DNA of 64,000 nucleotides from a virus, in the IMG/VR virus record IMGVR_UViG_3300032315_001604, positions 62,001 to 126,000 of that record; one strand, given 5' to 3'. Position 1 is the stretch's first letter. Each line of letters starts with the position of its first letter. This document shows positions 27,325 to 46,916 of the stretch, one piece after another. The position numbers and the translations under genes are program-made. Under the pieces are notes generated by a model. The model was not told the origin of the DNA. It saw only the letters and a list, made by a program, of their open reading frames with translations, and ran no database searches.

Positions 27325-29897
27325 GAGAATAATTCATTTAAATCTGTAACTTGTTCACAGCCTATAATAGGAACAGGCCATCCAATTGTAACAAAAACTC
27401 TTGCAATAACAGGTGCAACATTTTTTTCAAACATTAACTTGTAATCGGGTTTTAAACAAGAAAAAAACTCTTTTGGATAATCATTTAAAAATGCGACATT
27501 TGTAAAACCTAAAGAGTTTTTTAAACAATACAAAATTTTCATTTTTTCTCCACTACTAATTTTTTGATAAATGTCTGTTATTTTTAACTTTTCAATCAAA
27601 TTGTTATAGTTGATAGCCGCTTTAACGTGATTCGGTGTTCCTTTACCGAATTTATTATTTGAATCAATCATTCTAGAATATTTTTCTAGATTATTAATTT
27701 TTTTTCTTAAAGCTATAATATCAGGTGACATTTGACAAAATTTTTCATAACCTTCTTGAAAAATTCTACTAGCAGTTTTCTTTTCTTTAGAAATTAAAGC
27801 TGTCTCAATAACATTTTTAATCAAATCTTTAACGTCTTTCGATAAGATGGATTTGGCTACTTCTATGCCTTTATATTCAAATTTATCGGTCTTAACGCCT
27901 TCTTTATCTAAAATATGCAGAATATAAAACTTTTTCTTTTGAAGAAGGGCTACATCGCAAATTTTTTCTCTTTTAAAGAAGTATCTACTGTCTATTGATT
28001 TAAATTCATTTTTTGCCCATTCGTTAATTTCTAAATTTAGAATTTTTCCAAATTCTTCGATTAATTTGTTAGCTTCATTAGAAATATTATTGTTATCGTC
28101 CTTTAAAAGAATATTTTTTATTTTAAAAATATCTTTAAATGAAAAGAATTCACTATCCGTATCCTGATATATGCAGATATCTTGCTCTTCTCCTCTAAAT
28201 CCTAAAGTCTTTGCATGTTCATATATGATTTTCGACCCTTGCTTAACAACAGCTTGACCAGAAAGAGTTACGCTTTCGGCATGATCTATATCAAAAAGTG
28301 GTGAATAGATTTGAGAGAAAACACCATAAATTGAATTTAAAAAGACTTTATATACGCTTTCAAGCGTTGTATTATCAACAATTTCTTCTTTTAATAAAGC
28401 TATTTCTTTTTCGTCTGTAGTTTTTTTAAGCTTTTTCTTGGATTCCAACATTTTTGTTTTAGCTGTTACACGTTCTTTATAAAGTTTATCGATTAAATTT
28501 GGTACTATACCTTTAAATTTTTGAGTGTATAAAATATTTGCTTTAGTGATAGAAAGCTTTTCTTTTTCGACTAGTCTATCAAATTTTTCTTTTTCTAGAT
28601 TTACTATTTTTTCATTCGTGAGTTTGATTGTGTATATATTATCTTCTATTTTAAGAATCTTTCCTATTTTTGTTTCGGTAGAAATATTTAAAGTTATGAT
28701 TGTATTGGGATACAGACTGTTGGCATCGTATGTTACAACATCTTCGTATAGACCAGGTTTTGGTTCCAAAACAAAACCTCCAGCAAAACTTTGTTTAATA
28801 TTTTCCACATTAAACGTAGGAATTATTTTTTCTTCTTTTAAAGCTTGATGTGCTACTGCACCAGTAATTAAAGAAACTTTGCCCATAGACTTTTCAAATG
28901 GAATAAATCCTTTATAAGACAAATTTCTAATAAGTTTTAGATATTTTAGCTTCTCTTCTAATTTAATTAAAAGTTTAACGTCTTGAATATTATATTCAAC
29001 AAAAGTTTTCCAATCATTATCTGCTAAATCCGCAAGAGATGAATTAACGTATGCTACTTTACTTTCTCCTAATTCATATTCAGATATATAATTTAAACTA
29101 TAAGATTCTCTGTCTCCTAATGTAAAAGTTTTATAAACTTCCATGTAATCTAAAACACTAATACCATAGATATACCATCTATCAATAGCTTTACCTAGTT
29201 TATTGACTGCTACATTTTCTCTAAAATATAAACGTTGAACAGGAGATAGTTTTCGTGCTTCTTCTTCTCCTAAAATAATAGTAATTCTGTTTATGATATA
29301 AGGAATATCATATCCTGAAATATTCCAACCTGTTATACAATCGGGTGGATCTTTTTGCCAAAAGTCTAAAAATCTTTTTAAGAGGCTTTCTTCATTATGA
29401 CACTTTATATAAATTTCATCAGGATTTTTCGAAATATAATCTTTTTTTAACCCCCATGTATAATATTTTTCATCTATGGAATCATAGACAGTGATCAAAT
29501 TGATAAGATCTGTAGCATCTTTTGGTGAAGCAAACCCATTTTTTCCATACGTTTCGATATCGAAATAAAATATTTTAAGTTTGTTTTTACTGAAGTCAGA
29601 ATTTTCTGATGTATTCTTATATGTATCGAGAAGATATTGTTGCTCGCAATTTAAATTATAAAAAACTCTTTTGATCGTCGTTTCGTTTAAAAATTTACTT
29701 CTTTCAAATTGATTTCTAAATTTCACCTTTTTAAGGGGTGTATTAAAAATTGATACTCCATCTGTACCATTAGTAGATTCTATGTAAATATAAGGCTCAA
29801 AGCTATTTACAATTTTGATTCTTTGACCGTTTTCATCCCATGTCCAAAGATGAATAGCCTCTCCGCGAGGATCATAATAGACGTTTCTATAGCCCAT
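27321..29897 (-). CDS. 43: DNA polymerase gp43 (family B)
   Basis: An 858-residue polymerase (T4: 898). Proofreading exonuclease: Exo I YFDIET (111-116), Exo II WNISGYD (191-197), Exo III YNIQDVKLL (302-310). Polymerase: motif A YDANSLYPN (390-398), motif B KVFLNSIYGVF (517-527), motif C YQDTDSEFF (577-585). The C-terminal DLNELFS resembles the clamp-binding tail of gp43. It copies both strands with clamp gp45. The order 46-(GT)-43 keeps the T4 direction, but regA, 62, 44 and 45 are missing between them. Confidence 0.97.
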   Translation of the reverse strand: MGYRNVYYDPRGEAIHLWTWDENGQRIKIVNSFEPYIYIESTNGTDGVSIFNTPLKKVKFRNQFERSKFLNETTIKRVFYNLNCEQQYLLDTYKNTSENSDFSKNKLKIFYFDIETYGKNGFASPKDATDLINLITVYDSIDEKYYTWGLKKDYISKNPDEIYIKCHNEESLLKRFLDFWQKDPPDCITGWNISGYDIPYIINRITIILGEEEARKLSPVQRLYFRENVAVNKLGKAIDRWYIYGISVLDYMEVYKTFTLGDRESYSLNYISEYELGESKVAYVNSSLADLADNDWKTFVEYNIQDVKLLIKLEEKLKYLKLIRNLSYKGFIPFEKSMGKVSLITGAVAHQALKEEKIIPTFNVENIKQSFAGGFVLEPKPGLYEDVVTYDANSLYPNTIITLNISTETKIGKILKIEDNIYTIKLTNEKIVNLEKEKFDRLVEKEKLSITKANILYTQKFKGIVPNLIDKLYKERVTAKTKMLESKKKLKKTTDEKEIALLKEEIVDNTTLESVYKVFLNSIYGVFSQIYSPLFDIDHAESVTLSGQAVVKQGSKIIYEHAKTLGFRGEEQDICIYQDTDSEFFSFKDIFKIKNILLKDDNNNISNEANKLIEEFGKILNLEINEWAKNEFKSIDSRYFFKREKICDVALLQKKKFYILHILDKEGVKTDKFEYKGIEVAKSILSKDVKDLIKNVIETALISKEKKTASRIFQEGYEKFCQMSPDIIALRKKINNLEKYSRMIDSNNKFGKGTPNHVKAAINYNNLIEKLKITDIYQKISSGEKMKILYCLKNSLGFTNVAFLNDYPKEFFSCLKPDYKLMFEKNVAPVIARVFVTIGWPVPIIGCEQVTDLNELFS

Positions 29898-29936: not shown

Positions 29937-31253
29937 TTAAGCTTTTTGATCAGGGTTATTTTTAATCAATTGTGGTGACTTTTCGTTTCTTTCTTTTGAA
30001 CCAAAAGATGTAAAATACAGAGCTTCGTATTCGTCTAAATGATCTTCTAGCCATAAACCATCAACAAATTTTCTAGATTCCTCGGACATTCTCATATATC
30101 TATCAAAATCGGATGTGATATGATCCAATTGATCAATTAATTCACTACCATTTTTAAATTTTATTTCTGCATCTTCATATGTACATAGATCTTGATAAGC
30201 TCCTGGTATACCTAATGCACCCGCTTCAATCATTTTAATATTGCTTTTTGATTTATTAAAAACATTATCCATTAATGGAGCAAACGCAACGTTACAGTTT
30301 GTATCATATAAACCTTTTGGATAATCAAATAAAGCAGACCAATCGATATATTCCATTTCACCATTATCAATAAATGGTTTTACTGCTAGTGGATAACAAC
30401 CCTTCCAAACAAATTTAAATTTTTTACGAGCTTTAATGATTGCATCTACAACGTGAGCAAAATCATCATTCATTCCTGTTCGGTTTAAGACATCGATATG
30501 CGTTCCTGATCCTGAATATAAAATACGAGGACGTTTTTTATTTTTTTCATATAAACTCTCAATACGTTTTTTATCATAAAACCTATCCAACCAAAATTTT
30601 GGAGGATAATTTGGTATAACTGTTACATTTTTATTTCCAGTTTTAGAAATATAGTAATCTTTCATGTATTTGCATGTGACGGATATTTCATCCATCTCCG
30701 ACATGATTTCTAAAATACTTTTTACGATTGTTGGATCAACAAAAGCATCTTTGCAACGATTATAATCAGGAATATCGTCTTTGAAAACGATATCATCGAT
30801 TTCATAAATTAAACGAAAACCCATTTGTGATCTCGTTTTAGATAGCTCTTTGATAAATGCATTTTGGATTGGTGTAGCCTGTCTTTGCATTCTTATAGCC
30901 TTTAACGGTCCATAAAATCGCATATCGAGTATCATCTGTGTAAGACCTGAAATACATGCTTTATGATATCCGTTTAATAAAAATTCAGGCCATACCATAC
31001 GCCAAAACCCACAACCACCATAATCTGCATAATAGTTTAAAGCTCTTGGTAGATTGGCTTCAGGCATTTCGATTGGCGGTGGTTGTGGGATATGTACAGG
31101 TTGTGGAGCAGCATAACTATACTTCGGTGCTCCTATAGGCATTCCCATCGGAGCAAATGGAATACTCGTTTGTATTGGTTTATATTGAAATACTACGTTA
31201 GAACCATTACTTTGTTCCACAGTAGGAGTATTTGATTTAATTTTTAATGCCAT
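29937..31253 (-). CDS. GT-B glycosyltransferase (GT4-like)
   Basis: A 438-residue protein. The N-terminal 75 residues are low-complexity, Pro/Met/Gln-rich and probably disordered. The rest is a GT-B-like glycosyltransferase: GFRLIYEIDDIVF (acceptor side), VTCKYMKDYY, NVTVIPNYPP, RPRILYSGSGTH, KFKFVWKGCYP, and NCNVAFAPLMDNVFNKSKSNIKMIEAGALGIP. The last is the nucleotide-sugar-binding E-x7-E-like region. It stands between 46 and 43, the spot where T4 has 45-44-62-regA. The substrate is unknown. Confidence 0.75.
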   Translation of the reverse strand: MALKIKSNTPTVEQSNGSNVVFQYKPIQTSIPFAPMGMPIGAPKYSYAAPQPVHIPQPPPIEMPEANLPRALNYYADYGGCGFWRMVWPEFLLNGYHKACISGLTQMILDMRFYGPLKAIRMQRQATPIQNAFIKELSKTRSQMGFRLIYEIDDIVFKDDIPDYNRCKDAFVDPTIVKSILEIMSEMDEISVTCKYMKDYYISKTGNKNVTVIPNYPPKFWLDRFYDKKRIESLYEKNKKRPRILYSGSGTHIDVLNRTGMNDDFAHVVDAIIKARKKFKFVWKGCYPLAVKPFIDNGEMEYIDWSALFDYPKGLYDTNCNVAFAPLMDNVFNKSKSNIKMIEAGALGIPGAYQDLCTYEDAEIKFKNGSELIDQLDHITSDFDRYMRMSEESRKFVDGLWLEDHLDEYEALYFTSFGSKERNEKSPQLIKNNPDQKA

Positions 31254-31282: not shown

Positions 31283-33082
31283 TCAAGAGATCATTTGAGT
31301 CTGGTTTTTGTTTTTTTGTAAAAAAATCACATTATCAAAATTGTTTTTAATTGAAGATTTGTTATGAGAAACAATATATATCGATTCTTCATTTAAATCC
31401 ACTCTATTCTTTAGAATATCCATAATTTTTTGTATTCCTGCTTCATCTATAGCAGAATCAAATAATTCATCATACATGCTTAATGAAAAGAAAGTTCCAG
31501 AATAAAATCGTAAAATGTCTTGAAACATAAAAAGTATAGACAAATCTATTCTTTTTCTTTCGCCGCCACTAAAGTTAAAATAAGAACATTCTTTACCTTC
31601 CAAATTTTTTATAGTTTCTTCAAATTGTTCGTTAAATACGCAAGTACATGGAGCATCTAATTTTTTAAGATAAAAATTCAATTTTTCATTTAATATATCT
31701 AACAGTTTTTTTACAATAAATGTTTTTACTCCTTCTTCTGATAAGACAAACTTAACAGAATCCAAAATAGATATATCTTTTTTTATTTCTTTTAATTTAC
31801 TTTCTAAATCTTTTATATTTTCATTTATTTTTTTAATTTCTTCTTCTGATGGATCTTTTTCTTTTTCTAAATCTACAATGAATTGTTCGTAGTCTTTAAT
31901 TTTATTATTGAACTCTTTAATTTTTTCATCTTTGGCTTCTGTGGCGTTTTTTAATTGTTCTAACTCTTTAATTTTTAAATTTATTTGTGCTATTGCACTT
32001 TTAATTTCACTTTTTTTATCATTTTGTTTTTTTAAATCGTTAAAAGCCAATGTTTTACTTTCATTTAATTCTTTTAAATTTTTTTCTATTTGCTCTGTTT
32101 TTTCTTTTACAATTTTTATTTCATCCTCAGAATATGCTCTATTACAGACAGGACATATCTCTTTTTTTTGAGATAATGTCATTTTTTCTTTTTGTATTTG
32201 TTCGAGTTTGACTTTAATTTCTGTATGATTGTTACTGAGTTGTACAATTTCTTCTTCTTTTTCGCTCAAAATCATATTTGCTTGTGATAGTTTATCTTGA
32301 GCAGTTTGAAGTTTTTTTGTTATATCCGTGATGTTTACGTTTTGTTTTTGTATTTTTTCTATTTCGTTTTTGATATTACTGATAGTTATATTAAAATTTT
32401 TTATTTTATCGTTTTTAGTTTCTTGGTATTTTTTAGATTGTTTTTCAAAAATTTCTAAATTTTTTTGTTGGTTGATAAAGTCGTTGCATTTAATATCGTT
32501 TTCTTTTTTAACGTCATTAAAATCTGATCTGGTTTTTAACAACATATCTGTAAAAATGTTTAAGTTAAAAACTCCCTCTAAAAACTTTCTTTTATCAATT
32601 TTTTTCTGTGCCATGAAAGGCAGTGTGTTATTAGCCGTCATAATGACAGCATTATTAAAAAGTTCTTCGTTTGCCCCTAATAAGGTTTTTATGAAATCAT
32701 CATTATTTGGTATAGTTGATAATGTAACATCTTTATCATCACAAAAAATTTGTATTTTACTTGGTCCTAAAAATCTTTTAATGTTGTAAGTTGATGTTGT
32801 TTTGTCATGATTAATGATATCGAAAAACAATGAGACTTCGCAGTCTTTTTTTGTTTTATTGTGTATAATTTTATCGTTTTTAATTTCTCTGATAGTATTT
32901 CCAAAAATACACCAATAAATAGCCTCTATTATAGATGATTTACCTACACCATTGCGTGTGCCGTTATCTAAGTTATCGCCTGTTATTAAATTTATACCTT
33001 TAGAAAAGTTTAAAGATATAGGATTTTCCCCAATAGATAAAAAGTTTTTAATAAAAATTGATTTAAATGCAATTTTTTTCAC
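31283..33082 (-). CDS. 46: Recombination endonuclease subunit gp46 (SbcC/Rad50-like)
   Basis: A 599-residue SMC-like ATPase. It has Walker A NGVGKSS (44-50), long coiled coils (about 190-440) interrupted by the zinc hook CPVC (310-313), the ABC signature FSGGERKRIDLS (504-515), and Walker B SLSMYDELFD (533-542). With nuclease gp47 it resects DNA ends to make 3' ssDNA for UvsX. In T4 gene 46 follows 47 directly; here about 10 kb of sugar-modification genes separate them. Confidence 0.95.
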   Translation of the reverse strand: MKKIAFKSIFIKNFLSIGENPISLNFSKGINLITGDNLDNGTRNGVGKSSIIEAIYWCIFGNTIREIKNDKIIHNKTKKDCEVSLFFDIINHDKTTSTYNIKRFLGPSKIQIFCDDKDVTLSTIPNNDDFIKTLLGANEELFNNAVIMTANNTLPFMAQKKIDKRKFLEGVFNLNIFTDMLLKTRSDFNDVKKENDIKCNDFINQQKNLEIFEKQSKKYQETKNDKIKNFNITISNIKNEIEKIQKQNVNITDITKKLQTAQDKLSQANMILSEKEEEIVQLSNNHTEIKVKLEQIQKEKMTLSQKKEICPVCNRAYSEDEIKIVKEKTEQIEKNLKELNESKTLAFNDLKKQNDKKSEIKSAIAQINLKIKELEQLKNATEAKDEKIKEFNNKIKDYEQFIVDLEKEKDPSEEEIKKINENIKDLESKLKEIKKDISILDSVKFVLSEEGVKTFIVKKLLDILNEKLNFYLKKLDAPCTCVFNEQFEETIKNLEGKECSYFNFSGGERKRIDLSILFMFQDILRFYSGTFFSLSMYDELFDSAIDEAGIQKIMDILKNRVDLNEESIYIVSHNKSSIKNNFDNVIFLQKNKNQTQMIS

Positions 33083-33103: not shown

Positions 33104-33964
33104 TTAATTTTTTTGTAAAGTATCAATCAAATATTTGGCTGATGCGATGGTAGTTAAATGTTTTTTAGTGTGTTCAAAAACTTCATTTAAAAGTTCATAA
33201 TATCTATCATTGACTGTTCCGCTGTTAAAAATGCCGTTTGCTTCAAGTATTTCATTTTTAGGAAAATTAAACATAGTTTGAGATGGGCAACGTTCTAGAT
33301 CTGGAAAATGTGGCATACAATAATTTGCTAAAATCTCATAATGTCTCATGCAATCCCATCCACCTTTTTTATGTGTTCTACCAAAAAATGCTTCTTTATA
33401 GTTATTATAATATTCTTTTTCTGATTGATATATGTAACCAGAACCAGAATTACTAGGCAAATAATCTGCTAAAAACTTAGTTTTTTCAATTTTTGATATA
33501 TCTGTAACAATTTTTTCTTCAGGAATAGAAAAAGATATCGGATATATTTTTGGTATATTAACTAACAATTCCCTTTTAAAAAAGGGAATATTTTTTGTAT
33601 TGACTAATATATAGTCATCTTCTCCATCTACAGCCGCAATTTTATCTTTAGGATAGTTTTCCACAACCAAATTCAAATAATCTTTGCAACGACGAATACT
33701 ACCATAAACAATATAATCAAAATATTTGTTTTTAATTTTTAATTCTATATCAGATTTATCATTTAAATACTTGGGAAGATTGCCCCAAATGGTAAATCCC
33801 TTACCTGAACTGTTAAGTAGCTGTTCAGGTGTTGTGTGTTCTTTATACATTAAAAAATAGTCATCGGTGTGTGTTAAGTCTTCTCCTAATAAGCTATATA
33901 AGCCGTGTAAAAGACAATCACACTGGTAATCTGGTTGTCCTAAAGATATAAAAAGAACTTTCAT
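33104..33964 (-). CDS. Glycosyltransferase-like protein (CgeB-type)
   Basis: A 286-residue protein when started at ATG 33964, 1 base after the upstream stop; a longer start at 34000 would overlap that gene. KVLFISLGQPDYQCDCLLHGL is a Rossmann-type opening. KIAAVDGEDDYILV and the segment FGRTHKKGGWDCMRHYEIL followed by CMPHFPDLERCP and FPKNEILEAN match the pattern of CgeB-like GT-B proteins. It is the last gene of the glycosylation island before gp46. Confidence 0.6.
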   Translation of the reverse strand: MKVLFISLGQPDYQCDCLLHGLYSLLGEDLTHTDDYFLMYKEHTTPEQLLNSSGKGFTIWGNLPKYLNDKSDIELKIKNKYFDYIVYGSIRRCKDYLNLVVENYPKDKIAAVDGEDDYILVNTKNIPFFKRELLVNIPKIYPISFSIPEEKIVTDISKIEKTKFLADYLPSNSGSGYIYQSEKEYYNNYKEAFFGRTHKKGGWDCMRHYEILANYCMPHFPDLERCPSQTMFNFPKNEILEANGIFNSGTVNDRYYELLNEVFEHTKKHLTTIASAKYLIDTLQKN

Positions 33965-33965
33965 T

Positions 33966-34748
33966 TTAGATAAATTTATAAAAATTTTGAAACCAATCAC
34001 CTTGCATCAAATTAAATAACTCTGGATTTTTTTGATACGTAAAGGCATATATAGTTTGGTCATCATTGATTGCTTTTGCATTTAAAAACTCTTCTATTAC
34101 TTCAAAACATAAATTTTTAAGTTCTATTAATGGTTGCGCTTTTCCTGCAAACATAGAACCAGTAATACTCACTCTAGGATCGAGATATGAAGATAAAGCG
34201 ATTTGATCAGACAGAGTTAAAAAATGAACCTTATTATCGTCTAAAATTTTAATTTTTTCTGGATCTGGGTATTGTTTTAAACAATATTCTTGCGGAAAAC
34301 GATTATGATAGAATCCTGCATCCATCCATATAAAATAATCGCTTAAAAACGGATTTTCTTTTACTGTTTGCTCTATAAAACTGACTTTATTAAAATTAAT
34401 AATGTTATATTCAGGATAAAGCATTTCTGGTGTATGTTGTTCGTTTCTTTTTTTAAAAAAATCTAAGCTATCCATTACGTTTTTACTTTTTAAATAAAAT
34501 TTTTGAAATGCTTCTAAATTTGAAAAAGAATTTATGATAAATTTTGTTTTTTGAAATGATGGATCTACTTCAGATCTTAAAAGTTTTACTGTATCGTAAT
34601 CCTTTTCATCAATGTATATAACCATATTGCAGTCTAATGAAAGGACATTTTTAAAATATTTAAAATACTCTTGATAAGATCTTTGAAAGATATTATTCCA
34701 AGATCCTCTGCCTATATCATATAGACTAGTAACGATTGTAGTGCTCAT
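33966..34748 (-). CDS. HtrL/YibB-like glycosyltransferase family protein
   Basis: A 260-residue protein. The start STTIVTSLYDIGRGSWN, the NMVIYIDEKDY strand, LSDYFIWMDAGFYH, and ITGSMFAGKAQPL match the HtrL/YibB family, found in bacterial surface-polysaccharide loci and giant viruses. The W-M-D-A-G segment is the likely metal/nucleotide-sugar site. The substrate is unknown. It overlaps the upstream gene by 1 base (TAATG-like junction). Confidence 0.7.
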   Translation of the reverse strand: MSTTIVTSLYDIGRGSWNNIFQRSYQEYFKYFKNVLSLDCNMVIYIDEKDYDTVKLLRSEVDPSFQKTKFIINSFSNLEAFQKFYLKSKNVMDSLDFFKKRNEQHTPEMLYPEYNIINFNKVSFIEQTVKENPFLSDYFIWMDAGFYHNRFPQEYCLKQYPDPEKIKILDDNKVHFLTLSDQIALSSYLDPRVSITGSMFAGKAQPLIELKNLCFEVIEEFLNAKAINDDQTIYAFTYQKNPELFNLMQGDWFQNFYKFI

Positions 34749-35407
34749 TAATCTAAAACTTCTTGGCCATCGGGTGCTAAATTTCCTGATAGATTAATCT
34801 TATCAGTATTATGGATTATATCAAATTCAAAGATTTGATATTTATAAAAACTATGTTCAAGATCTATATAAAGACCTTTATTGTTTAACATTTCAGATAA
34901 GTTTTTTTCAAATTTATCTGCATAAGAAAATGGGAATCTATAATATCTAGTATCGCAAATGCCTTGATTTGACCAAGTATTAGTATCTTTTTTCTTTATC
35001 AGAATTTTATCTAATGGACAGTTGGTAAAATCGTGATGATCTGTTAAGAAATATCTTCCTGATATTTTGCTAACGGTTAAAATGTTTTTCTCGGCTTTTA
35101 ACTGATTAAAATAATCAGATTTTAAATAATTTAAAATTAAAGTGGCTTCTCCTATACTTTTATGTAAATTGCTTATATCGAAATATAAGAGGTTGTGAAT
35201 TTTACTTTCTTTAAGTTTTGCAATATCTTCTTTTGTCAGGATACTTCCTTCTAATACCACTATATAAGGGTTTGGTATTTTTTTATAAATTGAACTGATA
35301 GTTAAATCTGTTAACTGTTTAAGTCTTTCATTTGGACTATAAATCGATGAATGAAAGGGATAAATTACAGATGTGACAACAACTAAATTTATTTTTTTAG
35401 AGTCCAT
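34748..35407 (-). CDS. Glycosyltransferase-like protein, unassigned family
   Basis: A 219-residue protein with a GT-A-like beginning (INLVVVTSVIYPFHSSIYSPNERLKQLTDLTISSIYKKIP) in which the Tyr/Ser/Glu-Arg segment is a typical acceptor-counting opening. TVSKISGRYFLTDHHDF recalls the SKISGRY motif seen in uncharacterised glycan-locus proteins. It overlaps the downstream HtrL-like gene at 1 base and the upstream methyltransferase by 19 bases. Its membership in the island is clear, the chemistry is not. Confidence 0.5.
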   Translation of the reverse strand: MDSKKINLVVVTSVIYPFHSSIYSPNERLKQLTDLTISSIYKKIPNPYIVVLEGSILTKEDIAKLKESKIHNLLYFDISNLHKSIGEATLILNYLKSDYFNQLKAEKNILTVSKISGRYFLTDHHDFTNCPLDKILIKKKDTNTWSNQGICDTRYYRFPFSYADKFEKNLSEMLNNKGLYIDLEHSFYKYQIFEFDIIHNTDKINLSGNLAPDGQEVLD

Positions 35408-36033
35408 TTAATGTCATGTTCACACCATTCTTCAGGAACATCTTCGAACACCCCATCTGTCAAATTTCCCCACCCTTTAGCAATTTTAATATATTTTTCA
35501 CCTAAAATATTATTAAAATTTGATTCTTTATTTTGATTTTCTACAATCTCATTATTATAAATTGTAGGTTTGTTATCTTTTTCGACTTCGCATTGTATTT
35601 CATCAATCAAACCTTTATTAATATATGGTTCAAGAGTTTTTAAAACTATCAAATCATATCCTTGTAAATCGCTAATATATGTATCGATTTTTTGGATATT
35701 GTTTTCTTGACAAAAATTAAAAAGATTAATTGTAGGAACTGTTAATTGCTCTGATGTTTGGATACATGAAAATAATTCATTGTTAACATTTGGAGTTAAA
35801 ATAGAACTAGAATCTCCATTATTTTTAGAAATATTAAAAGTGATAACTGTATTGTGTTTTTCGCAAATTGCTGCATTAATAATCGTTACGTTTTGATTTG
35901 TCGCAAAACGTTGTTTTAAGATTTGACAAAATCTTGGATTTGCTTCAAATGCATATATTTGTTCATATTCAGAAATAAAATTGGATACAGAGTTTCCATG
36001 ATGAGCACCGACATAAATTAATGTTTTTTTCAT
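35389..36033 (-). CDS. FkbM-family SAM-dependent methyltransferase
   Basis: A 214-residue protein. The SAM-binding start LIYVGAHHGNSVSNFI (motif I), the acidic EANPRFCQIL (motif II), then VTIINAAICEKHNTVITFNISKNNGDSSSI and a LQGYDLIVLKTL segment in the place of the FkbM DxEGxExxVLxG motif. Such enzymes O-methylate sugars in glycolipids and polysaccharides. It is probably used to cap or decorate the glycan made by neighbouring transferases. Confidence 0.8.
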   Translation of the reverse strand: MKKTLIYVGAHHGNSVSNFISEYEQIYAFEANPRFCQILKQRFATNQNVTIINAAICEKHNTVITFNISKNNGDSSSILTPNVNNELFSCIQTSEQLTVPTINLFNFCQENNIQKIDTYISDLQGYDLIVLKTLEPYINKGLIDEIQCEVEKDNKPTIYNNEIVENQNKESNFNNILGEKYIKIAKGWGNLTDGVFEDVPEEWCEHDIKWTLKK

Positions 36034-36037
36034 AATA

Positions 36038-36529
36038 TTAATAATCTATAATAAGAATATCTTTTGGATGCCAACGATCAGCTTCATATGAAATTTTGGC
36101 ATTTGGTTTATATTTTTTAATTAGATCGGTGATTGTTTGTATGTTAACACTTTGATCAAAGTTTTCATATAGTCGCATATCATCCACATATATAAGTTCT
36201 CCGTCTATGTTTCTAGATAAAATCATTTGTAGCTCAGTTATTAGTGGTGTAGAATCGCTCATATGAGCATCTAACCAAAACGTAAAAGCAGTATTTAAAT
36301 TGCTGTCCAAAACTTCTTTTAATTTTAAAGAAGAATCTCCTAAAATCATTTGAACTTTTGGTTCATTTGAAAATCTATCTACACAATGTTTGTAATATTG
36401 TTCTACTAATTCTATCGCATAAATTTTTGAAAATCCACTATCTAAAGCTAATTGAATACTATAGCCTTCAAATGCTCCAGTTTCTATATACGACTCCGTT
36501 TTTTTATAAAAAGTAGATTCTTTTGGCAT
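36038..36529 (-). CDS. Small class I SAM methyltransferase-like protein
   Basis: A 163-residue protein. ESYIETGAFEGYSIQLALDSG is motif I in variant form (E-T-G-x-x-x-G), IYAIELVEQYYKHC is motif II, and MILGDSS and FTFWLDAHMSD complete the Rossmann core, with YVDDMRLY and RWHPKDILII towards the end. The length is short for an FkbM enzyme. The substrate is unknown; it sits between an FkbM gene and a double GT2 gene. Confidence 0.7.
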   Translation of the reverse strand: MPKESTFYKKTESYIETGAFEGYSIQLALDSGFSKIYAIELVEQYYKHCVDRFSNEPKVQMILGDSSLKLKEVLDSNLNTAFTFWLDAHMSDSTPLITELQMILSRNIDGELIYVDDMRLYENFDQSVNIQTITDLIKKYKPNAKISYEADRWHPKDILIIDY

Positions 36530-36532
36530 TTT

Positions 36533-37846
36533 TTAAATTTGTGTGTTGTTATACACACTGTTTTCTCCTGTTTGTAAACATGCTGTATTTGCTTCGGTGT
36601 GAACATACGCATGTAAAGGCTTATCGATAAAAAATTCTGTTTTTGCGTCTCTCCATAACTGAGAAACCCAACCAAAATCTTCACATATGTTATTGCTAGG
36701 TACTCTATATTTTTGAGCTAGTTTTCTGTTCCATGCACAAATATGATATGGTTTTCTCTTAAAGATTGTATCTGGTGAATATGTTTCGTTTTCATTTTGA
36801 AGACCAAATACTACTATAGATTTTGGATTTTCTTCAATAAAACAGTTTTGTTTAAATGTAATAACGTCTACATCAGGATTATTTTTAATAGCATTTACTA
36901 ATTCTATTACATAATCGTTAGATATATCATCGTCATCATCAACAAAAGCAACAAATTGACCTACTGCGGATTGTATTAAATTATCTCTTTTTCGGCCAAC
37001 AGTTCTAACTTTATTATCTATGAGTATTAAATGTTCTACTTTTTTTTCAAGATTGTGTTGTTTTATTTGCTGTTCAATTTTATCAATCAATTTTTTTAAA
37101 CTAGTTCCAATTCTTGATGGAATGCTAGGTGTCAATATAGAAAGATGTGGTAGGAATGGATTTAAATCAAAATTTAATTTATGTCTTTTTTCATATGTGA
37201 CTTTATCTATATTAAAATAAGATTCGTTTCTTGCATATAATTCATCAAAATTTGTTTTTTGATATACAGGATGAGCATGTTCGATAATGACGTTATCAAG
37301 TTTATAACATTTTCCTAAAAAATTTGAAACATCTGTAAACTCATTATCACACCAAAGACTTATATATTCTGGATTGTATATGTAATTGAATCTTTGATAA
37401 TATTTGTGACCCAAAATGCACAAAGTATTAATTTTATCTTGTCCACCATCACTATACCATAAAACACCATCCATGTTTCTATGATATGCAAGCATGTCAT
37501 TACGAATGATATCGTCATATCCATCTACTATAGGAATCATATCATCTGAAGCAAGTAACAGTATATGCCACCCTCCTACTTTTTCCATATCTGCATTAAT
37601 TGCTTGAACTTTTGTTTTATTATGACCAAAAAAATAAACTAATTTTATTTTTTTCTTAAATTCTTCAAGTCTTGATATAACTTGAGGATTATTCATAGCT
37701 GGATCATCAACATCGCAGCTTATAACAAAAGCTATATCATTTTTATTTGTTGCTTTACTATAATATAACTCTAAAACTTGAAAAAATTTTTCAGGTCTTC
37801 CCCTTGTTGGGAATTTAATTAATAAGTTTAATGAATCGGATATCAT
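36533..37846 (-). CDS. Two-domain glycosyltransferase (GT2-like x2)
   Basis: A 437-residue protein with two GT-A units. Unit 1 (about 5-215): LLIKFPTRGRPEKFFQVLEL and ILLLASDDMIP. Unit 2 (about 225-425): LSILTPSIPSRIGTSLKKLID, GRKRDNLIQSAVGQFVAFVDDDDDI with the DxD-type metal site, VITFKQNCFI and YHICAWNRKL. The second unit is a typical GT2. The overlap of 4 bases with the upstream GT-B gene suggests coordinated expression. Substrate unknown. Confidence 0.8.
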   Translation of the reverse strand: MISDSLNLLIKFPTRGRPEKFFQVLELYYSKATNKNDIAFVISCDVDDPAMNNPQVISRLEEFKKKIKLVYFFGHNKTKVQAINADMEKVGGWHILLLASDDMIPIVDGYDDIIRNDMLAYHRNMDGVLWYSDGGQDKINTLCILGHKYYQRFNYIYNPEYISLWCDNEFTDVSNFLGKCYKLDNVIIEHAHPVYQKTNFDELYARNESYFNIDKVTYEKRHKLNFDLNPFLPHLSILTPSIPSRIGTSLKKLIDKIEQQIKQHNLEKKVEHLILIDNKVRTVGRKRDNLIQSAVGQFVAFVDDDDDISNDYVIELVNAIKNNPDVDVITFKQNCFIEENPKSIVVFGLQNENETYSPDTIFKRKPYHICAWNRKLAQKYRVPSNNICEDFGWVSQLWRDAKTEFFIDKPLHAYVHTEANTACLQTGENSVYNNTQI

Positions 37847-38844
37847 AAATTCTCTAAAAATACTTGATTAAACTGTTTCATAACATTTTGTGGATTATAC
37901 CACTGATAAGAGTTATAATCCACATTTTTATTTGGTACAAAATTCATAAAAATGTCAAATAAATCGTTTTCTTCTTCGTAATATATAGCATCATTTTTAA
38001 GAATATCAATATATCCTTTACCGATACCATGTTTCCATGTAATAATAGGTTTATTTAAGGCACAGAATTCTGCAATAGCTAATCCAAATGTTTCTCCATG
38101 ATGTCTGGCATGAATCATTGCGTCAGTAGCAGCAATATATCGATATTTTTCTTTTAAATCGATAATTGGATCTACATAAATCAATCTTTCATGTGAAAGA
38201 AAGGGGTTTGTACAAATCATTAAAAAATATAAATCTTTTCTTTGATTTAAAACTTTGTTTATAGCGTTATAAACAAAAGGTAAATTAAAATCATTATATC
38301 CTCCTATTCTTCCATAAACAAAAGCATCTTCAGGAATATTAAGTTTATGTCTAATTTCTTTTTTGGCTGCTACTGCGTCTATTTGAGGGGTGTTGATAAT
38401 ATGTGAAACGTAAGGTATTTTGCCTTGAGAGCATGTATCAGATAACCATTTAGATACATATGCAAATCTATCACCATGAACATTACTCATAGGTTGAGGA
38501 AAAACCGAGTGAATAAGCATTTTTGCATGTTTTGAATAAAACCCTGTAGGTTCACCCGATTTTATATTATAAACAGCATCAATTTTTTCTTTCAAAATGA
38601 AAGAATCTAATTCTTCATAATTTTTATATTCAATCAAATTAAATTTTAATTTTAAAGAATCTATAGTTTTATCTACATAATTTTTGTAAAACGGTTCATT
38701 CCATGGAAAAACATCAATTCTTTTGCCAAAAGCTAAAAAAGATTTGTTTTTTAAAATTTTTTCATTAAAAAATGCATAATCTAACAAAGCTCTGGTAGAA
38801 CCTTGCATTGAAAATTGTTCTTCTAAAAAAAGTATATTTTTCAT
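37843..38844 (-). CDS. GT4-like (GT-B) glycosyltransferase
   Basis: A 333-residue protein. ILFLEEQFSMQGSTRALLDYA is the opening loop, FAYVSKWLSDTC the acceptor-domain end, YGRIGGYNDFNLPFVYNAI the start of the donor domain, and AMIHARHHGETFGLAIAEFCALNKPII the donor-binding motif (E-x-F-G-x-x-x-x-E) characteristic of GT4 enzymes. It overlaps its neighbours by 4 bases on both sides. Confidence 0.85.
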   Translation of the reverse strand: MKNILFLEEQFSMQGSTRALLDYAFFNEKILKNKSFLAFGKRIDVFPWNEPFYKNYVDKTIDSLKLKFNLIEYKNYEELDSFILKEKIDAVYNIKSGEPTGFYSKHAKMLIHSVFPQPMSNVHGDRFAYVSKWLSDTCSQGKIPYVSHIINTPQIDAVAAKKEIRHKLNIPEDAFVYGRIGGYNDFNLPFVYNAINKVLNQRKDLYFLMICTNPFLSHERLIYVDPIIDLKEKYRYIAATDAMIHARHHGETFGLAIAEFCALNKPIITWKHGIGKGYIDILKNDAIYYEEENDLFDIFMNFVPNKNVDYNSYQWYNPQNVMKQFNQVFLENL

Positions 38845-39392
38845 TGTGTTTGAGAAGGTTGATAAAAATATATTGGAGTTTTGATATAAACTTCAGTTTT
38901 CAATAAAGTTTTTAAACGTAAAGAGTAATCGTAATCTTCCCCAACTGAAATATCAAGAAAATCTATTGATAATGCAATTTCTTTTTTAATAGGATTCAAA
39001 TGATTTGGGCATCTGTAATGAACATTATTTTTAGTATACCAAGAAGAATATTGAATAGAATGTACAAATTTTTCTTTTTTATTGCGATTGATAATCATAC
39101 CTTCTATTCCACAGCAATCTGGGTTTTTATATGAAATTGCTGTTAAAATTTTAACAACATAATCATCGGAAACCCAATCATCATCATCGATAAAAACTAC
39201 ATACTCGCCTTTAGCTGAACGTAATAATTCATTTCTTTTTAAGCCTATACTTTTTTCTCCAGAATCTATGTTAGCCAAAAGCTCAACATCAGGACAAAAT
39301 TTAATTTGTTCAGTTAAATGTCTGTTTAACTTTTTAAATTTGTTAGTTCTATTATGTAGAGTACAAGTTAATATAGAAAGTTTTTTATTCAT
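38841..39392 (-). CDS. GT2 glycosyltransferase (short)
   Basis: A 183-residue protein. KLSILTCTLHNRTNKFKKL is the nucleotide-binding start, SIGLKRNELLRSAKGEYVVFIDDDDWVSDDYV holds the GT2 DDD metal site (about residues 73-78), and SVGEDYDYSLRL is the ED catalytic base motif. It is a compact GT2 without extra domains. It resembles the second unit of the 36533-37846 protein, suggesting duplication inside the island. Confidence 0.85.
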   Translation of the reverse strand: MNKKLSILTCTLHNRTNKFKKLNRHLTEQIKFCPDVELLANIDSGEKSIGLKRNELLRSAKGEYVVFIDDDDWVSDDYVVKILTAISYKNPDCCGIEGMIINRNKKEKFVHSIQYSSWYTKNNVHYRCPNHLNPIKKEIALSIDFLDISVGEDYDYSLRLKTLLKTEVYIKTPIYFYQPSQTQ

Positions 39393-41514
39393 TTACTTTA
39401 TAAATTAATAATCCATCTGATCCTACTCTTCTTTCAAAAAATGGTATATCTAAAAATAAGTTATAATCTAATGATTTAAAAAATTCTTTACATTCATTGT
39501 GCCAAAAATCAGAATGTGTTAATATATACACATGTTTTATTTTTTTATTTATAAAAAGTTCTTTATTTTCATTTAAAAGTGTTGTTTCTGATCCATCAAT
39601 ATCAAAATGTAATACATCAATTTCTATTATATTATGTTCTTTAAAAATCTCATAAAGTGTTATTGGTTTGACTTGAAAATTTTTAATATTTTGATTTGTT
39701 TGAATTACCCAATCATTACCAATACCATTATTATAAAAAATTCCTTCACAATTATTAATCTCAAAATGTTTTTTTCCTAATTCCAAATAAGGTATATGCG
39801 GTTCTATCATTATATTAATAGTATTATTTTTACCTAAAATGTGTTTAAATAGTAAAGAATAATATGCTTGATTAGCACCTACTTCGATCATAATATATGG
39901 AGGTTTATTTTTTTTAAATTCTAAAGTATTTTTTTCAAAATTTTCAATTAAATCGATTTCTGAATCATCTTGATAATATTCCCAAACGTTTTCATGTCCT
40001 TGATTTTTTAAAATTTTAAAATTATATTTTTTTGTGTATGTTTGTTTTTTGGCAACTTTAATATGTTTAAAATCTAAATTTTGATTGATATCAATTTGAT
40101 ATTCATTTAAATTAATATTTTTAAATCCGTTGTCAAACATGTTAGTTTTGCCTGATTGTTCATCTTCTCTTTTTTGTCCGTTCACATAATGTGCTTTTAC
40201 TTCTACATCGTTTAATAATCTTGTTTGATGTGGAACAGAATAAAATTTGCCAAAAGGGTGCGTATAAATTTTCAAACCTACTTTTTCTACACGATTTCCT
40301 AGTGTTCTGTCTTCAGATCCCCACCCTATATAATCAATCGGATATCCATTAACTGCTTCAAAATGTTCTTTTCGAAAAACTATAACTCCTCCCATTGTTG
40401 CATCTGGATTTTGTATATAATCGAATTGACTACAATATGTGCTCATATGCACAGGTGTTTCTGGATATGAATAATCTGCAATTTCGGGTATTAGATCTAC
40501 ATCATGAAAACAGTAATAATTAAAATTGGGATTAAATAAAAATGCTATATTATTTAATAATCCTTTATTAAAAAGATCATTATCATTTTGTTCTACAACA
40601 ACAATTTCATATTTAGAAACTTGTTTTGATAGGACGTTTTTAAGAGCAGGAATTAGCTGATCTAATGCTGTTTTTCTATCTCTATATGGAATAACGACAC
40701 ACAATTCCTTATCGTTATTGATTAATTTTTTACGACTATAGTTTGTCTGCAACACTACTAAACTTTTGAGTAAATTTTTAATTCCCAAATCTTGAATAGT
40801 ATTTGTAAAGTGACCCCATTTTTTAGTAAAAAATTCTGCTGATTTTTGCCAATTTTCTTGATATTTTTCTTTATTTGTAATAGATGAATTTGCACTACTA
40901 CCTTCTATATCAGTTAAATAATCTTCACTGTTATAAAGATCAGGGAAATACCAAAAAGGAGGAGCAACGTTTTTTTGAATTAAATTGTAAGCAAAGTCGA
41001 TATGCTCAAATGCATTGGTATAATTTTCATCAAAATATCCCAACTTTTTAAGTAATTGGGCATTGATATACATAAATGCTCCTTGTGGATTGTGATAGAA
41101 ACCTATTTTTACTCCATCTGGTTGTTCGTGGACGTATTTTAAGCTCTTTTCATTGTCAGCTACCTTTTCATAACACAAATGATGAATTCCTGTTGAATTA
41201 GCAGCTTTAATATATTCTTCAAAAACATTAGAGTCTTTTACAATAATATCATCTTCTATTAAGAATAGATGTTCGCACCCCAAATTAATTAGCTCTTTAA
41301 GAGCTTTGTTTTTTGATTTAGCTACCCCTAATTGTTTATTGTTATGAATAACTGTATCTGCATCTGCTGGATTTACATATGCATCTTCTCCATCATTTAC
41401 TATGACTAGTTTATCCATCTTATCTTTTGGTAAAGATGCATAAACTTTACTATAATAATCAGGGCGATTATATGTAATAATACCAACACCTATTCTTGAT
41501 GATACAGTTTCCAT
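39385..41514 (-). CDS. Three-domain glycan enzyme: GT2-like + GT7-like galactosyltransferase-like + FkbM methyltransferase
   Basis: A 709-residue fusion. Domain 1 (about 5-235): RIGVGIITYNRPDYY, LFLIEDDI (EDD 87-89), QGAFMYINAQLL. Domain 2 (about 270-450): LCVVIPYRDR, FHDVDLIPE (DVD 338-340), MGGVIVFRKEHF, and YIGWGSEDRTLGNR (397-408), matching the GWGxED motif of beta-1,4-galactosyltransferase-type (GT7) enzymes. Domain 3 (about 535-705): IMIEVGANQAYYSLLF motif I, IMIEPHIPYL, DVLHFDIDGSETTLL, the FkbM pattern. One polypeptide could add two sugars and methylate the product. Domain order is seen; donors and acceptor are unknown. Confidence 0.85.
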   Translation of the reverse strand: METVSSRIGVGIITYNRPDYYSKVYASLPKDKMDKLVIVNDGEDAYVNPADADTVIHNNKQLGVAKSKNKALKELINLGCEHLFLIEDDIIVKDSNVFEEYIKAANSTGIHHLCYEKVADNEKSLKYVHEQPDGVKIGFYHNPQGAFMYINAQLLKKLGYFDENYTNAFEHIDFAYNLIQKNVAPPFWYFPDLYNSEDYLTDIEGSSANSSITNKEKYQENWQKSAEFFTKKWGHFTNTIQDLGIKNLLKSLVVLQTNYSRKKLINNDKELCVVIPYRDRKTALDQLIPALKNVLSKQVSKYEIVVVEQNDNDLFNKGLLNNIAFLFNPNFNYYCFHDVDLIPEIADYSYPETPVHMSTYCSQFDYIQNPDATMGGVIVFRKEHFEAVNGYPIDYIGWGSEDRTLGNRVEKVGLKIYTHPFGKFYSVPHQTRLLNDVEVKAHYVNGQKREDEQSGKTNMFDNGFKNINLNEYQIDINQNLDFKHIKVAKKQTYTKKYNFKILKNQGHENVWEYYQDDSEIDLIENFEKNTLEFKKNKPPYIMIEVGANQAYYSLLFKHILGKNNTINIMIEPHIPYLELGKKHFEINNCEGIFYNNGIGNDWVIQTNQNIKNFQVKPITLYEIFKEHNIIEIDVLHFDIDGSETTLLNENKELFINKKIKHVYILTHSDFWHNECKEFFKSLDYNLFLDIPFFERRVGSDGLLIYKVNE

Positions 41515-42311
41515 ATTTCTTTTAGTTTTTGCACAACTTCTTGTTCAGAAGCAATGTTTTCTTGTGGTCCGTATCCCGCAACAACCGAGAAGTTATTCTT
41601 GTGAATAAAATGATCCAATCCTTTTTTAAAGGTATCTTGAAAATCAGATTCGGATCTAATTTTAGATTGTTGGTGATCAGGAACAATATCTTTTAAGTAT
41701 AAATTAGAATCTTTAATATCAGCAAACCATCTAAAAGGAGGATGGTAGTTATTTTTAATAATTTGATATGTATGATCTACATGCTCTAATGCATTATAAA
41801 AATTTTCATCCATTAAACCGATTTTATTTAAGACATCTACATGATAGTAACTAAATGCTCCAAGCACATTAGGGTATAAATTAATTGATGTTTTATCAGG
41901 ATAATTTATAGATTTACGGATATTTGGTTGATTTAAAAAATTTAAATTGTGATTGCCATGAAGTCCGTAGTTAAAATGTTTAATACCTGTGCTTTTTGAA
42001 GCATTTATATATTTTTCAAAAATTTCATGATTTAAAATTTCAATGTCATCTTCCATTAAGAAGATATGTTCACATTTTTGATCTAATAAATATTTTAAAG
42101 CTATGTTTTTTGCTTTAGCTACTCCCTCCTTGCCCTTTGTCTCTTTAAAAATAACAGGATAATATGGCAATTTTTCCGTTCCATCATTGATTATGATATA
42201 TTCTAACTCTGTTTTTTGAGAAGCATCTAATAGAGAAGTGACCGATTTTTTATAAAAATCTGGTCTGTCACATGTAATTAGCCCTATTCCTATTTTATTT
42301 TGAGCTACCAT
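41490..42311 (-). CDS. GT2-like glycosyltransferase, paralogue of the fusion protein's first domain
   Basis: A 273-residue protein when started at ATG 42311, which gives MVAQNKIGIGLITCDRPDFY, matching the start of its paralogues; an ATG at 42341 would add ten residues and extend the overlap with the upstream gene. IFLMEDDIEILN holds the EDD site; NVLGAFSYYHVDVLNKIGL and NALEHVDHTYQIIKNNYHPPFRWFADI closely follow the layout of domain 1 of the 709-residue neighbour (QGAFMYI, NAFEHIDFAY, APPFWYFPDL). The two are clear duplicates. Substrate unknown. Confidence 0.8.
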   Translation of the reverse strand: MVAQNKIGIGLITCDRPDFYKKSVTSLLDASQKTELEYIIINDGTEKLPYYPVIFKETKGKEGVAKAKNIALKYLLDQKCEHIFLMEDDIEILNHEIFEKYINASKSTGIKHFNYGLHGNHNLNFLNQPNIRKSINYPDKTSINLYPNVLGAFSYYHVDVLNKIGLMDENFYNALEHVDHTYQIIKNNYHPPFRWFADIKDSNLYLKDIVPDHQQSKIRSESDFQDTFKKGLDHFIHKNNFSVVAGYGPQENIASEQEVVQKLKEIWKLYHQE

Positions 42312-43074
42312 AAGTTTTTTGAAGTTTTTCCATAAACTCAAGTAAAACTTGTTGGGTTACTCCACTTGGATCATTTTGAGATGGTATATATTTGTGTTTA
42401 TGGTAAAAATAGGCACAAGATAATTCTAAAGATTTGTCATCATCTGGTTTGTATTGCTCTTTTGACTGAGGCATTTCTTTAAAATTTATTTTTTCTATGT
42501 TAGCAACATATTCCTCTAAAGAATCTTTTTCGATTGTTGGATTATAATGTTTAGGAGGATAAACTTCTTTTTCTCTCATTTTATTGATAAAATCAACTAT
42601 ATCTAAATCTTTGGTGTTATAATATCTTTCATCAAAGTATCCAAAGTTTTTAATAATTCCCGAATACAGAAAGATAAAATTTGTATTAAGCTGTGGAGAA
42701 AGGTTTAGAGTTAAATTGGCAGCATCATCTTCTACTGGAATACTATTAGATCCTGCGCCAGTAATAAACCATGTTCCAAAAGTTTCTGCCAGATTTATTG
42801 TTTTTTCAAAAAAATTATTGTCTTTAATTCTTACATTTGAATTTAAGAGAAAATAGTATTTTAAATTTTTAATTCTCATCTGAGAAATTAAATAGTTTCT
42901 CATTGTTGCTAATGAGACTTGTTTTGTATAATTTTTTTGATTCTCTTTAGAGAATGTTTTATTAGATACAATAAAAACATTTGATTTAAATTCTTCAGGA
43001 ATAGAAGAAATTGCTCCTTCTAATAATTCATCAGAGTGTATGTCTAAAATACCAATTCCTATTTCGCTTTTCAT
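42295..43074 (-). CDS. GT2-like protein, divergent paralogue
   Basis: A 259-residue protein with the same frame as the next two genes: EIGIGILDIHSDELLEGAISSIP, YYFLLNSNVRIKD where the paralogues have EDDI, then YSGIIKNFGYFDERYYNTKDLDIVDF and VYPPKHYNP. The acidic metal site is replaced by NSNVR, so it may be catalytically inactive or use a different mechanism. It overlaps gp47 by 4 bases and is the first gene of the island after 47. Confidence 0.65.
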   Translation of the reverse strand: MKSEIGIGILDIHSDELLEGAISSIPEEFKSNVFIVSNKTFSKENQKNYTKQVSLATMRNYLISQMRIKNLKYYFLLNSNVRIKDNNFFEKTINLAETFGTWFITGAGSNSIPVEDDAANLTLNLSPQLNTNFIFLYSGIIKNFGYFDERYYNTKDLDIVDFINKMREKEVYPPKHYNPTIEKDSLEEYVANIEKINFKEMPQSKEQYKPDDDKSLELSCAYFYHKHKYIPSQNDPSGVTQQVLLEFMEKLQKTYGSSK

Positions 43075-44114
43075 TTTATTAAATCATTATACAATTCTTT
43101 TACATAAGAAACAACTTCTTTTTTATTTTCAATATCAAGAGAGTCTACATATGTTTTAATATCTTGCATTAAATCAACGGTTTTTAATTCATTTTCTTTT
43201 AATGAAGATGTAGTTTTCTCAGATTCTTGATGATCTATTCTTAAAGAAATCGGTTCTAGTTTATTTATTTTGCTGTGTAAAAGTATCAACTTTTCTTCAT
43301 CTAGTTGAGTATCAACGACTAAACTAATATGATTATTTTTAATATTTTCTTTTAAAAAGGATACTGTTATTTCACCTGATAGTATTCTTTTGATAGAAAT
43401 TTTTATATGTTTTGGTGAAATTTTATTTTCTATAAAATCGAAATTGTTTTTTTCTACATCATAAACATATATTCCTCTACTATCTAAAGTGTCACCAAAG
43501 TTTTGTTGATAAGGACTGCCCAAATAAACTATTTCACCGTTTTGATATGTTCTGTGATCTTTTTTATGAAAATGTCCTGAGATAATAAGTTTAGATTTTT
43601 TAAAAAGATCAGCAGACTTTAAACCATGTTCACAAACTTTATATGTATTCATATAAAAAGATGTGATTTCAAAATGACCAAATATAATATCTACATTTGG
43701 AATATCAACAATATCAGTACCCCAAGGAACTAAAACTGCTTTCTTATTATAGATATCTAATTCAAAAGGCATATCATCTATAATTTTGATATTTTTCCAA
43801 CCATCAAAAATTGATATTGAATTAACTTTTCCTGTATCTTTGTAAAAGCTGTCATGATTTCCTACGGAAATATAAAGATTAAAATCTTTAAAATAATCAA
43901 AAAACTTTTTAGCTGTATCTAATGTAGATACGGATATTTCTGATCTGTTATGAAAAATATCACCAGGAATGATTATATCATTTATTCCGAGTTCCAAATA
44001 TTTTTTAGAAGCCCATTCAGCAAATTCTAATACTATCTTATGCCATATAGGATTATCTTGATTAATTCCTATATGAACATCTGAAAAACATCCGATTTTG
44101 TTACTTTTAATCAT
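43071..44114 (-). CDS. 47: Recombination endonuclease subunit gp47 (SbcD/Mre11-like)
   Basis: A 347-residue metallophosphoesterase, close to T4 gp47 (339). Metal-binding motifs: CFSDVHIG (D12, H14), IPGDIFHNR (D52), VGNHDSF (GNHD 85-88), FGHFEI (146-150), and ISGHFHKKDH (178-187). Its final residues VKELYNDLIK form a helix. It works with ATPase gp46 in end resection. Its start overlaps the gp55 gene by 8 bases, keeping the T4 order 55-47. Confidence 0.95.
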   Translation of the reverse strand: MIKSNKIGCFSDVHIGINQDNPIWHKIVLEFAEWASKKYLELGINDIIIPGDIFHNRSEISVSTLDTAKKFFDYFKDFNLYISVGNHDSFYKDTGKVNSISIFDGWKNIKIIDDMPFELDIYNKKAVLVPWGTDIVDIPNVDIIFGHFEITSFYMNTYKVCEHGLKSADLFKKSKLIISGHFHKKDHRTYQNGEIVYLGSPYQQNFGDTLDSRGIYVYDVEKNNFDFIENKISPKHIKISIKRILSGEITVSFLKENIKNNHISLVVDTQLDEEKLILLHSKINKLEPISLRIDHQESEKTTSSLKENELKTVDLMQDIKTYVDSLDIENKKEVVSYVKELYNDLIK

Positions 44115-46655: not shown

Positions 46656-46916
46656 ATGTTTAATAAATTTCAAATTTTAGTTAACACTCTTTTAGAAAAC
46701 AATACAGCAGGATCTGGCGGTGCTTTAGGAACGCCACAACAAGCTATATTTAACCCACCAGTTAGCATATCATCTGCTGATACATATGCACAAGAGGATG
46801 CCCGTAATGTTATGGGTGGTGTTTTCCCCTTACAAGGTAAGAAAAAGGGTAAGAAAAAGTCTAAAAAACAAAAACCTTTAGTAATTAAAAGAAACTTACA
46901 AAGAAATTCTTTATAA
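46656..46916 (+). CDS. Small protein with Gly/Ala/Asp middle and strongly basic C-terminus
   Basis: An 86-residue protein starting MFNKFQILVNTLLENN; the ATG at 46656 is preferred over a longer start at 46593, which would run back into uvsY. The middle AGSGGALGTPQ, FNPPVSISSADTYAQEDAR and the end GKKKGKKKSKKQK with QRNSL resemble a group of small conserved proteins in marine T4-like phages (S-x-D-x-Y-A-x-x-D-A-R then Lys-rich tail). The function is unknown. Its stop overlaps the next start by 1 base. Confidence 0.6.
   Translation: MFNKFQILVNTLLENNTAGSGGALGTPQQAIFNPPVSISSADTYAQEDARNVMGGVFPLQGKKKGKKKSKKQKPLVIKRNLQRNSL

Follow-up and report, generated by a model that had tools for sequence, protein, structure and literature searches.

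Glycan-enzyme clusters of T4-like phages have so far been called 'LPS' (lipopolysaccharide) genes or possible filler, without an established target (PMC3037559, PMC7824862), and authors have read them as modification of the host O-antigen or, again, as possible filler (PMC7029224, PMC7824862, PMC3037559). In cyanophages these clusters are located near hli03 or phoH (PMC3037559), and the hypervariable, glycosyltransferase (GT)-rich host recognition cluster of T4-like pelagimyophages belongs to the structural region, alongside tail fibres and between VrlC and gp14 (PMC7029224). Phage GTs also act on virus particles: Che8 virions are glycosylated by them (PMC12363180, PMC11256854), and in Che8 and other mycobacteriophages the modified proteins are reported to be those of the capsid and the tail tube (PMC12363180, PMC12619734). 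Here we describe a glycan-enzyme locus elsewhere, between the recombination genes 47 and 46, in a window of 64,000 nucleotides (positions 62001-126000 of the 195,163-base IMG/VR virus record IMGVR_UViG_3300032315_001604). We give about even credence to the reading that it is a clade-wide, cassette-swapped locus for glycan assembly in the cytosol, with virion proteins as the most likely target. A full-text literature search returned no description of a 47/46 glycan locus; one may still exist. What is new is the fixed 47/46 address, a conserved core with a degenerate GT, a series of empty, single-GT and cassette states, and evidence of cassette replacement.

The interval (33104-43074) is bounded by two intact genes, those of the SbcD-like subunit gp47 (43071-44114; tblastn to T4 and S-RIM2 gp47, Metallophos_2 sub-threshold) and of the SbcC-like subunit gp46 (31283-33082; SMC_N/AAA_23, tblastn to T4 gp46). 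Between them we counted 11 open reading frames (ORFs; I1-I11), which cover about 99% of the interval; all genes described below between 27321 and 44114 lie on the minus strand. An earlier note on this DNA had reported a one-strand block of glycan enzymes at this place, and that block is real. However, the note counted ten genes, with overlaps of 1 to 25 bases. Most junctions do overlap (by 1, 4, 4, 4, 8, 19, 25 and 35 bases, and by 47 bases at I1/I2, given the assumed TTG start of I2), but there are also gaps of 3, 4 and 21 bases. Nor are the two border genes adjacent in T4, as the note had it: 46.1 and 46.2 lie between them with alpha-gt close by, and S-RIM2 has one 82-aa ORF there.

The source virus is, judged from its genes, a T4-like myophage in the broad sense, since the record contains homologues of the T4 core genes 43, 46, 47, 55, uvsW, uvsX, 41, 44, 17, 18, 20, 21 and 23 (tblastn with S-RIM2 and T4 queries; best E per gene 8e-16 to 4e-104). 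In the same whole-record searches its proteins are roughly 25-46% identical to those of isolate phages. A nucleotide search with the 47-46 region against isolates gave zero matches, so the comparison was made through metagenomic viral contigs. Three kinds of query (gp47 itself, profiles of gp46 and gp47, and an empty-site relative's gp47) yielded some 200 loci in these contigs.

Intact ORFs in the same 47-46 arrangement are seen in more than 100 viral contigs. One uncultivated T4-like clade supplied 40 distinct complete intervals, which range from 3,952 to 16,668 bases, contain 4 to 22 ORFs and are 95-100% coding; the degraded reading frames that the earlier note had named as a refuting observation are not seen. 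When compared all against all, the island proteins fell into 122 clusters, including 70 singletons. One cluster alone, the paralogue group of I1, I2 and I3, occurs in all islands (40 of 40), and each of the others occurs in 1 to 17. Pfam matches of 114 cluster representatives are mainly to GT2, FkbM and other methyltransferases, epimerase/GDP-mannose dehydratase (GMD), GT1, GT47, GT8, GT10 and DegT aminotransferase. The comparison of relatives that the note had called for therefore finds a recurrent island of mosaic content, in which a conserved core (a degenerate GT-A protein beside gp47, an EDD-type GT-A protein, and a GT-B protein after gp46) brackets the variable cassette.

Close relatives can carry different cassettes. 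Between contigs L007 and L011 the upstream 9 kb are 96.4% identical, the stretch from gp47 into I3 is 91.2% identical and that from gp46 through gp43 is 87.8% identical, while the middles (about 8.4 vs 4.6 kb) are essentially unrelated, save one 0.7-kb stretch at 80%. Similarly, L162+L084 and L164+L092 share 94.1% over 11.3 kb on the left and 93.2% over 6.9 kb on the right, and their middles (about 4.8 and 6.5 kb) cannot be aligned. L011 and L023 follow the same pattern, with collinear flanks and a differing middle. Because unrelated cassettes sit in phages with 88-96% identical flanks, the cassettes must have been replaced. Sequence comparison thus establishes the locus, its conservation and the exchange of its cassettes; the pattern is as expected from homologous recombination in the conserved flanks, which would be the mechanism of exchange.

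A quick-search tree of 101 rows, built from gp47 and uvsW, separates three groups. Clade A contains the empty-site phage L246 (12 bases between the two genes) and ten single-GT phages with an interval of about 0.8 kb; clades B and C carry cassettes, and clade C holds the phage of the window. A second empty-site phage, L120 (39 bases), is placed at the base of clade C, though not firmly. Three state changes suffice for this distribution of empty, single-GT and cassette intervals, and the ancestor may have been empty or not. The earlier note had spoken of an inserted island; the two empty sites agree with that, but the locus is old, clade-wide, constantly re-sorted and not special to this phage. 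A group-1 GT-like gene (L120:26-1045; Pfam sub-threshold) lies directly upstream of uvsY in the empty-site relative. In the single-GT sister clade, an HtrL-like gene stands beside gp47 on the opposite strand (L210, L211, L212, L215, L220, L226, L233, L234, L238, L239, L240 and L244), so HtrL appears to be a recurrent partner of the locus.

The core is ordered in a regular way. In clade C, gp47 is followed by the homologue of I1 and then that of I2 in nearly all contigs that are long enough (L135 and L089 are among the exceptions), and after gp46 come the GT438 gene and then gp43. In the window, I1 (42295-43074, 259 aa) is the first gene after gp47 and is assigned as a degenerate GT-A protein by its paralogy with I2 and its predicted fold. 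I2 (41490-42341, 283 aa) is a GT-A protein with an E-D-D motif, for which PHROG GT matches are clear (phrog_2456, 3e-23) and the GT2 Pfam match is sub-threshold. I1 and I2 are remote paralogues (hhalign 98%, E 2e-13). The AlphaFold model of I1 is confident (pLDDT 89.5); among solved structures its closest folds are those of GT-A enzymes, e.g. POMGNT1 and GnT I, with modest TM scores around 0.5. The E-D-D motif is kept in none of 67 distinct I1 homologues, most of which show S-N at that place, and EDD or EED is found in 72 of 77 distinct I2 homologues, the remaining five being from the single-GT clade. EDD is present in the first genes of clade B; in clade A the single GTs no longer carry it (N-D-x and similar). 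Loss of the probable metal-binding motif suggests a non-catalytic role for I1. Non-catalytic GT-fold partners, e.g. GtfB of the serine-rich-repeat adhesin pathway, bind acceptors, and by analogy I1 may be a subunit that binds the acceptor or a partner.

GT438 (29937-31253; phrog_7162, 7e-23) is a GT-B glycosyltransferase between gp46 and the gene of the DNA polymerase gp43 (27321-29897; PF00136 and PF03104), which is the next conserved gene downstream. Its AlphaFold model (pLDDT 88) matches BshA, SenB, PimB' and other GT-B enzymes in Foldseek, and it is found by synteny in all relatives whose contigs reach that point, including the empty-site L246. The earlier note had placed an additional GT in the position of T4 45-44-62-regA. 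A GT does stand between 46 and 43, but it has not taken the place of the clamp-loader gene gp44, which has moved to record positions 138173-139099, next to a baseplate wedge gene.

Next to I2 is I3 (39385-41514, 709 aa), a fusion of GT2-like, GT7 and FkbM parts (Glyco_transf_7N 2e-18, 7C 2e-16, GT2 6e-6 in the N-part, FkbM 2.7e-4 in the C-part, just under the cut-off), whose counterparts in most relatives are about 490 aa long and lack the FkbM part. I4 (38841-39392, 183 aa) is a GT2 enzyme (3e-8). I5 (37843-38844, 333 aa) is GT-B/GT4-like by a group-1 match below the cut-off (Glycos_transf_1, 1.2e-4) and belongs to cluster 9, found in 11 islands. I6 (36533-37846, 437 aa; cluster 3, in 16 islands) contains two GT units, with phrog_14945 in the N-half and a GT2 of the I4 family in the C-half. 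I7 (36038-36529, 163 aa) has no Pfam or PHROG family match. I8 (35389-36033, 214 aa) is an FkbM methyltransferase (PF05050, 9e-10) of the same family as P-SSM2 gene 267 (phmmer). I9 (34748-35407, 219 aa), a cassette protein with no family assigned, has a homologue in the L023 island with 52% identity, I10 (33966-34748, 260 aa) belongs to the HtrL_YibB family (PF09612, 2e-43), and I11 (33104-34000, 298 aa, GTG start assumed) has homologues in L023 and L119. A near-identical contig (L029/L042) covers the latter half of the island and continues over gp46, GT438 and gp43.

In total, the island of the window encodes at least six GT or HtrL-type units and one or two FkbM methyltransferases. Pfam bears out the GT2, GT7 and HtrL units of the earlier note, and its GT4-like unit has the sub-threshold match of I5. 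The CgeB-like assignment of I11 is backed by neither Pfam (read up to E 10) nor PHROG, and of the three methyltransferases proposed, that of I8 and, just under the cut-off, that of I3 are seen, but I7 is without support, Pfam again at E up to 10. The complex methylated glycan that the note foresaw would be a product read from these domains; the multi-enzyme GT/methyltransferase locus itself is well supported.

The nearest described system is the 'LPS' cluster of the T4-like cyanophage P-SSM2 (genes 257-271, 193428-205500), which is likewise a contiguous same-strand run of soluble GTs, epimerase/GMD and methyltransferases. Of its 15 proteins, eight have a counterpart among the island clusters (E about 1e-24 or better); for example, GT 263 matches cluster 25 (3e-105), GT 268 matches cluster 33 (4e-64) and methyltransferase 267 matches cluster 11 (1e-52), and the GMD/epimerases match cluster 1. 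Membrane-like segments are found in none of the 15 proteins. However, the P-SSM2 cluster lies near hli03 rather than between 47 and 46 and has no match to the I1/I2 core, and Pfam/PHROG domain searches found no nucleotide-sugar enzyme in the cassette of the window, although many relatives carry such enzymes in theirs. The pelagimyophage cluster resembles the island in being hypervariable, GT-rich and T4-like, but the island stands among recombination and replication genes. With bacterial O-antigen and capsule loci the island shares conserved flanks, a replaceable GT/sugar cassette and diversity among close relatives.

The target of the glycan was approached through the enzyme families. Among 453 island proteins only one has a strongly hydrophobic 19-residue segment of transmembrane type, and the initiating transferase PF02397 and the flippase PF01943 are found in none of the 14 largest records of the set, with control genomes positive. 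In this the island differs from O-antigen and capsule loci. Envelope polysaccharide loci need membrane proteins; protein glycosylation is the best fit for soluble enzymes with a soluble acceptor. The three-gene gp108-110 cluster of Che8 has no T4-like context, but it has relatives here: I4 is homologous over its full length to the GT half of gp108 (phmmer 1e-29) with DDDD and further motifs invariant, the C-half of I6 matches gp108 at E 4e-20, and island cluster 26 is homologous to its methyltransferase half. Virion proteins are accordingly the favoured entry among the targets that the earlier note had listed. Several points weigh against this reading. Capsid glycosylation in Che8 is reported to depend on gp110 (PMC12363180), an enzyme that matches island cluster 6 only weakly (hmmsearch 5.5e-6 across about 52 residues; hhalign probability 25%). 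The I4 family is also seen in bacteria, in a surface-polysaccharide locus that has an ABC exporter and GT10 and GT1 genes (L256). Late-promoter-like motifs precede 11 of 43 structural genes and none of the 11 island genes, so the island and the virion genes are probably not co-regulated. A lone GT29 (sialyltransferase-family) gene of 202 aa lies on the opposite strand within the structural module (L035:19007-19615; record 144007-144615, minus strand, outside the window), which counts in favour of a virion target, but it is present in 1 of the 14 records, this one, and in none of the 13 large relatives. Moreover, gene families alone cannot fix a target, and the acceptor protein is one that we infer. 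As GT29 occurs only in this genome, a sialyl-type glycan made by GT7 and GT29 is not claimed.

The main rival, which we hold to be possible but rather doubtful, is that the soluble enzymes extend or cap host lipid-linked O-antigen or capsule precursors on the cytosolic face, host flippase and ligase export the product, and superinfection is blocked or the infected cell disguised. This is the usual interpretation of such clusters in cyanophages and pelagimyophages (PMC7029224, PMC7824862), and it agrees with an enzyme content that is like that of O-antigen loci and overlaps the P-SSM2 cluster, with the GT10, GT1 and ABC exporter genes next to the bacterial I4 relative, and with a location in the replication unit that fits early expression. 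On the other side stand the lack of PF02397 and PF01943 in the 14 largest records and the near absence of membrane segments in island proteins, and in our judgement the gain for a lytic phage inside one infection is uncertain. A DNA target, with GTs glycosylating modified bases like T4 alpha-gt and beta-gt, agrees with the place of GT genes within the replication unit and has a parallel in T4 alpha-gt, the neighbour of gene 47, but we consider it improbable. Such glucosylation requires a hydroxylated base, and the target is disfavoured because PF00303, the thymidylate-synthase/dCMP-hydroxymethylase family, is found in none of the 14 large records (9 of 14 control genomes positive) and because tblastn of the whole record with T4 gp42, alpha-gt and beta-gt gave nothing at E<0.1. 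The one thymidylate synthase seen is ThyX. TET/JBP also gave no match, in a search without a positive control that carries little weight. To our knowledge, a set of up to 22 enzymes with methylases and GMD exceeds any known DNA-glucosylation set. Least probable of all, we hardly credit that the 47/46 junction is a tolerant site which collects sugar genes as filler. 'Stuffer DNA' has been raised for cyanophage LPS genes (PMC3037559) and gene turnover is strong here, but the ORFs are intact and the intervals almost entirely coding, the core GTs are 34-67% identical across the clade with invariant motifs, and the gene content is functionally coherent, not random.

If virion proteins are indeed the target, the enzymes would be produced together with the replication and recombination genes, ahead of assembly, and would work in the cytosol, directly modifying acceptor proteins that the phage encodes, most likely those of the virion (fibres, capsid or tail). 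The core would start or prime the glycan, with I1 perhaps as a non-catalytic subunit that binds the acceptor or a partner, and the cassette would set the later sugars and methyl caps. Diversifying selection on a surface glycan would explain the turnover of the cassettes. More tentatively, and with less than even confidence, we propose that lytic T4-like phages own a 'glycotype' locus analogous to bacterial serotype loci, in which a priming core with a degenerate GT as possible acceptor adaptor and a recombinationally exchanged cassette may give a strain-specific, protein-linked glycan coat built wholly in the cytosol.

Some other features of these genomes were recorded. Two large adjacent proteins in the window (51000-53999 and 54011-57178), the first of which combines a phage tail tip domain with numerous SHAEG repeats (YadA head repeats), are probably fibres and possible glycan acceptors. 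In the structural region, a protein of 1732 aa (L037:4367-9565; record 167367-172565) has a von Willebrand A domain and, at its C-terminus, a legume-type lectin domain. Record positions 1-31000 (L031, L032) contain three proteins with BspA-type leucine-rich repeats (best 7e-94), as well as adenylosuccinate synthetase, IMP dehydrogenase and a sulfotransferase. A SegE-type GIY-YIG homing endonuclease gene adjoins uvsY (window 46916-47353; PF19835, 1.5e-31). In relatives, gp55 homology falls into two pieces about 1 kb apart (L004:1740-3182, L008:2261-3655), which suggests an intron, intein or homing insertion, and gp43 homology in two pieces (L061, L070, L081, L214, L215) similarly suggests an inserted element. 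A promoter-like site (TTTACA-16-TATAAT, 33119-33092) near gp46 is a sequence match only; a conserved promoter of gp46 at the island border was dropped as an explanation, as exact TATAAT occurs in 25 of 76 relatives without clear excess over other genes. As for the host, the isolate phages that have an I4 relative, 57 in all, are without exception phages of Mycobacterium or Gordonia, but an actinobacterial host is not claimed, because WhiB is absent in the 14 large records and I4 relatives are widespread among bacteria and occur in over 300 viral contigs. A search of genome contigs with gp46 gave no relative.

The clade offers a natural series (empty, one GT, 4-22 genes) at one address, with relatives that differ mainly in the cassette and an enzyme set that is soluble only, and this makes the question of the target testable. 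The degenerate GT conserved beside gp47 is a concrete protein for such study. If the virions of cassette-swapped relatives do differ in their glycan, these phages would have a serotype-like surface diversity of their particles, which would bear on adsorption, host range and particle recognition.

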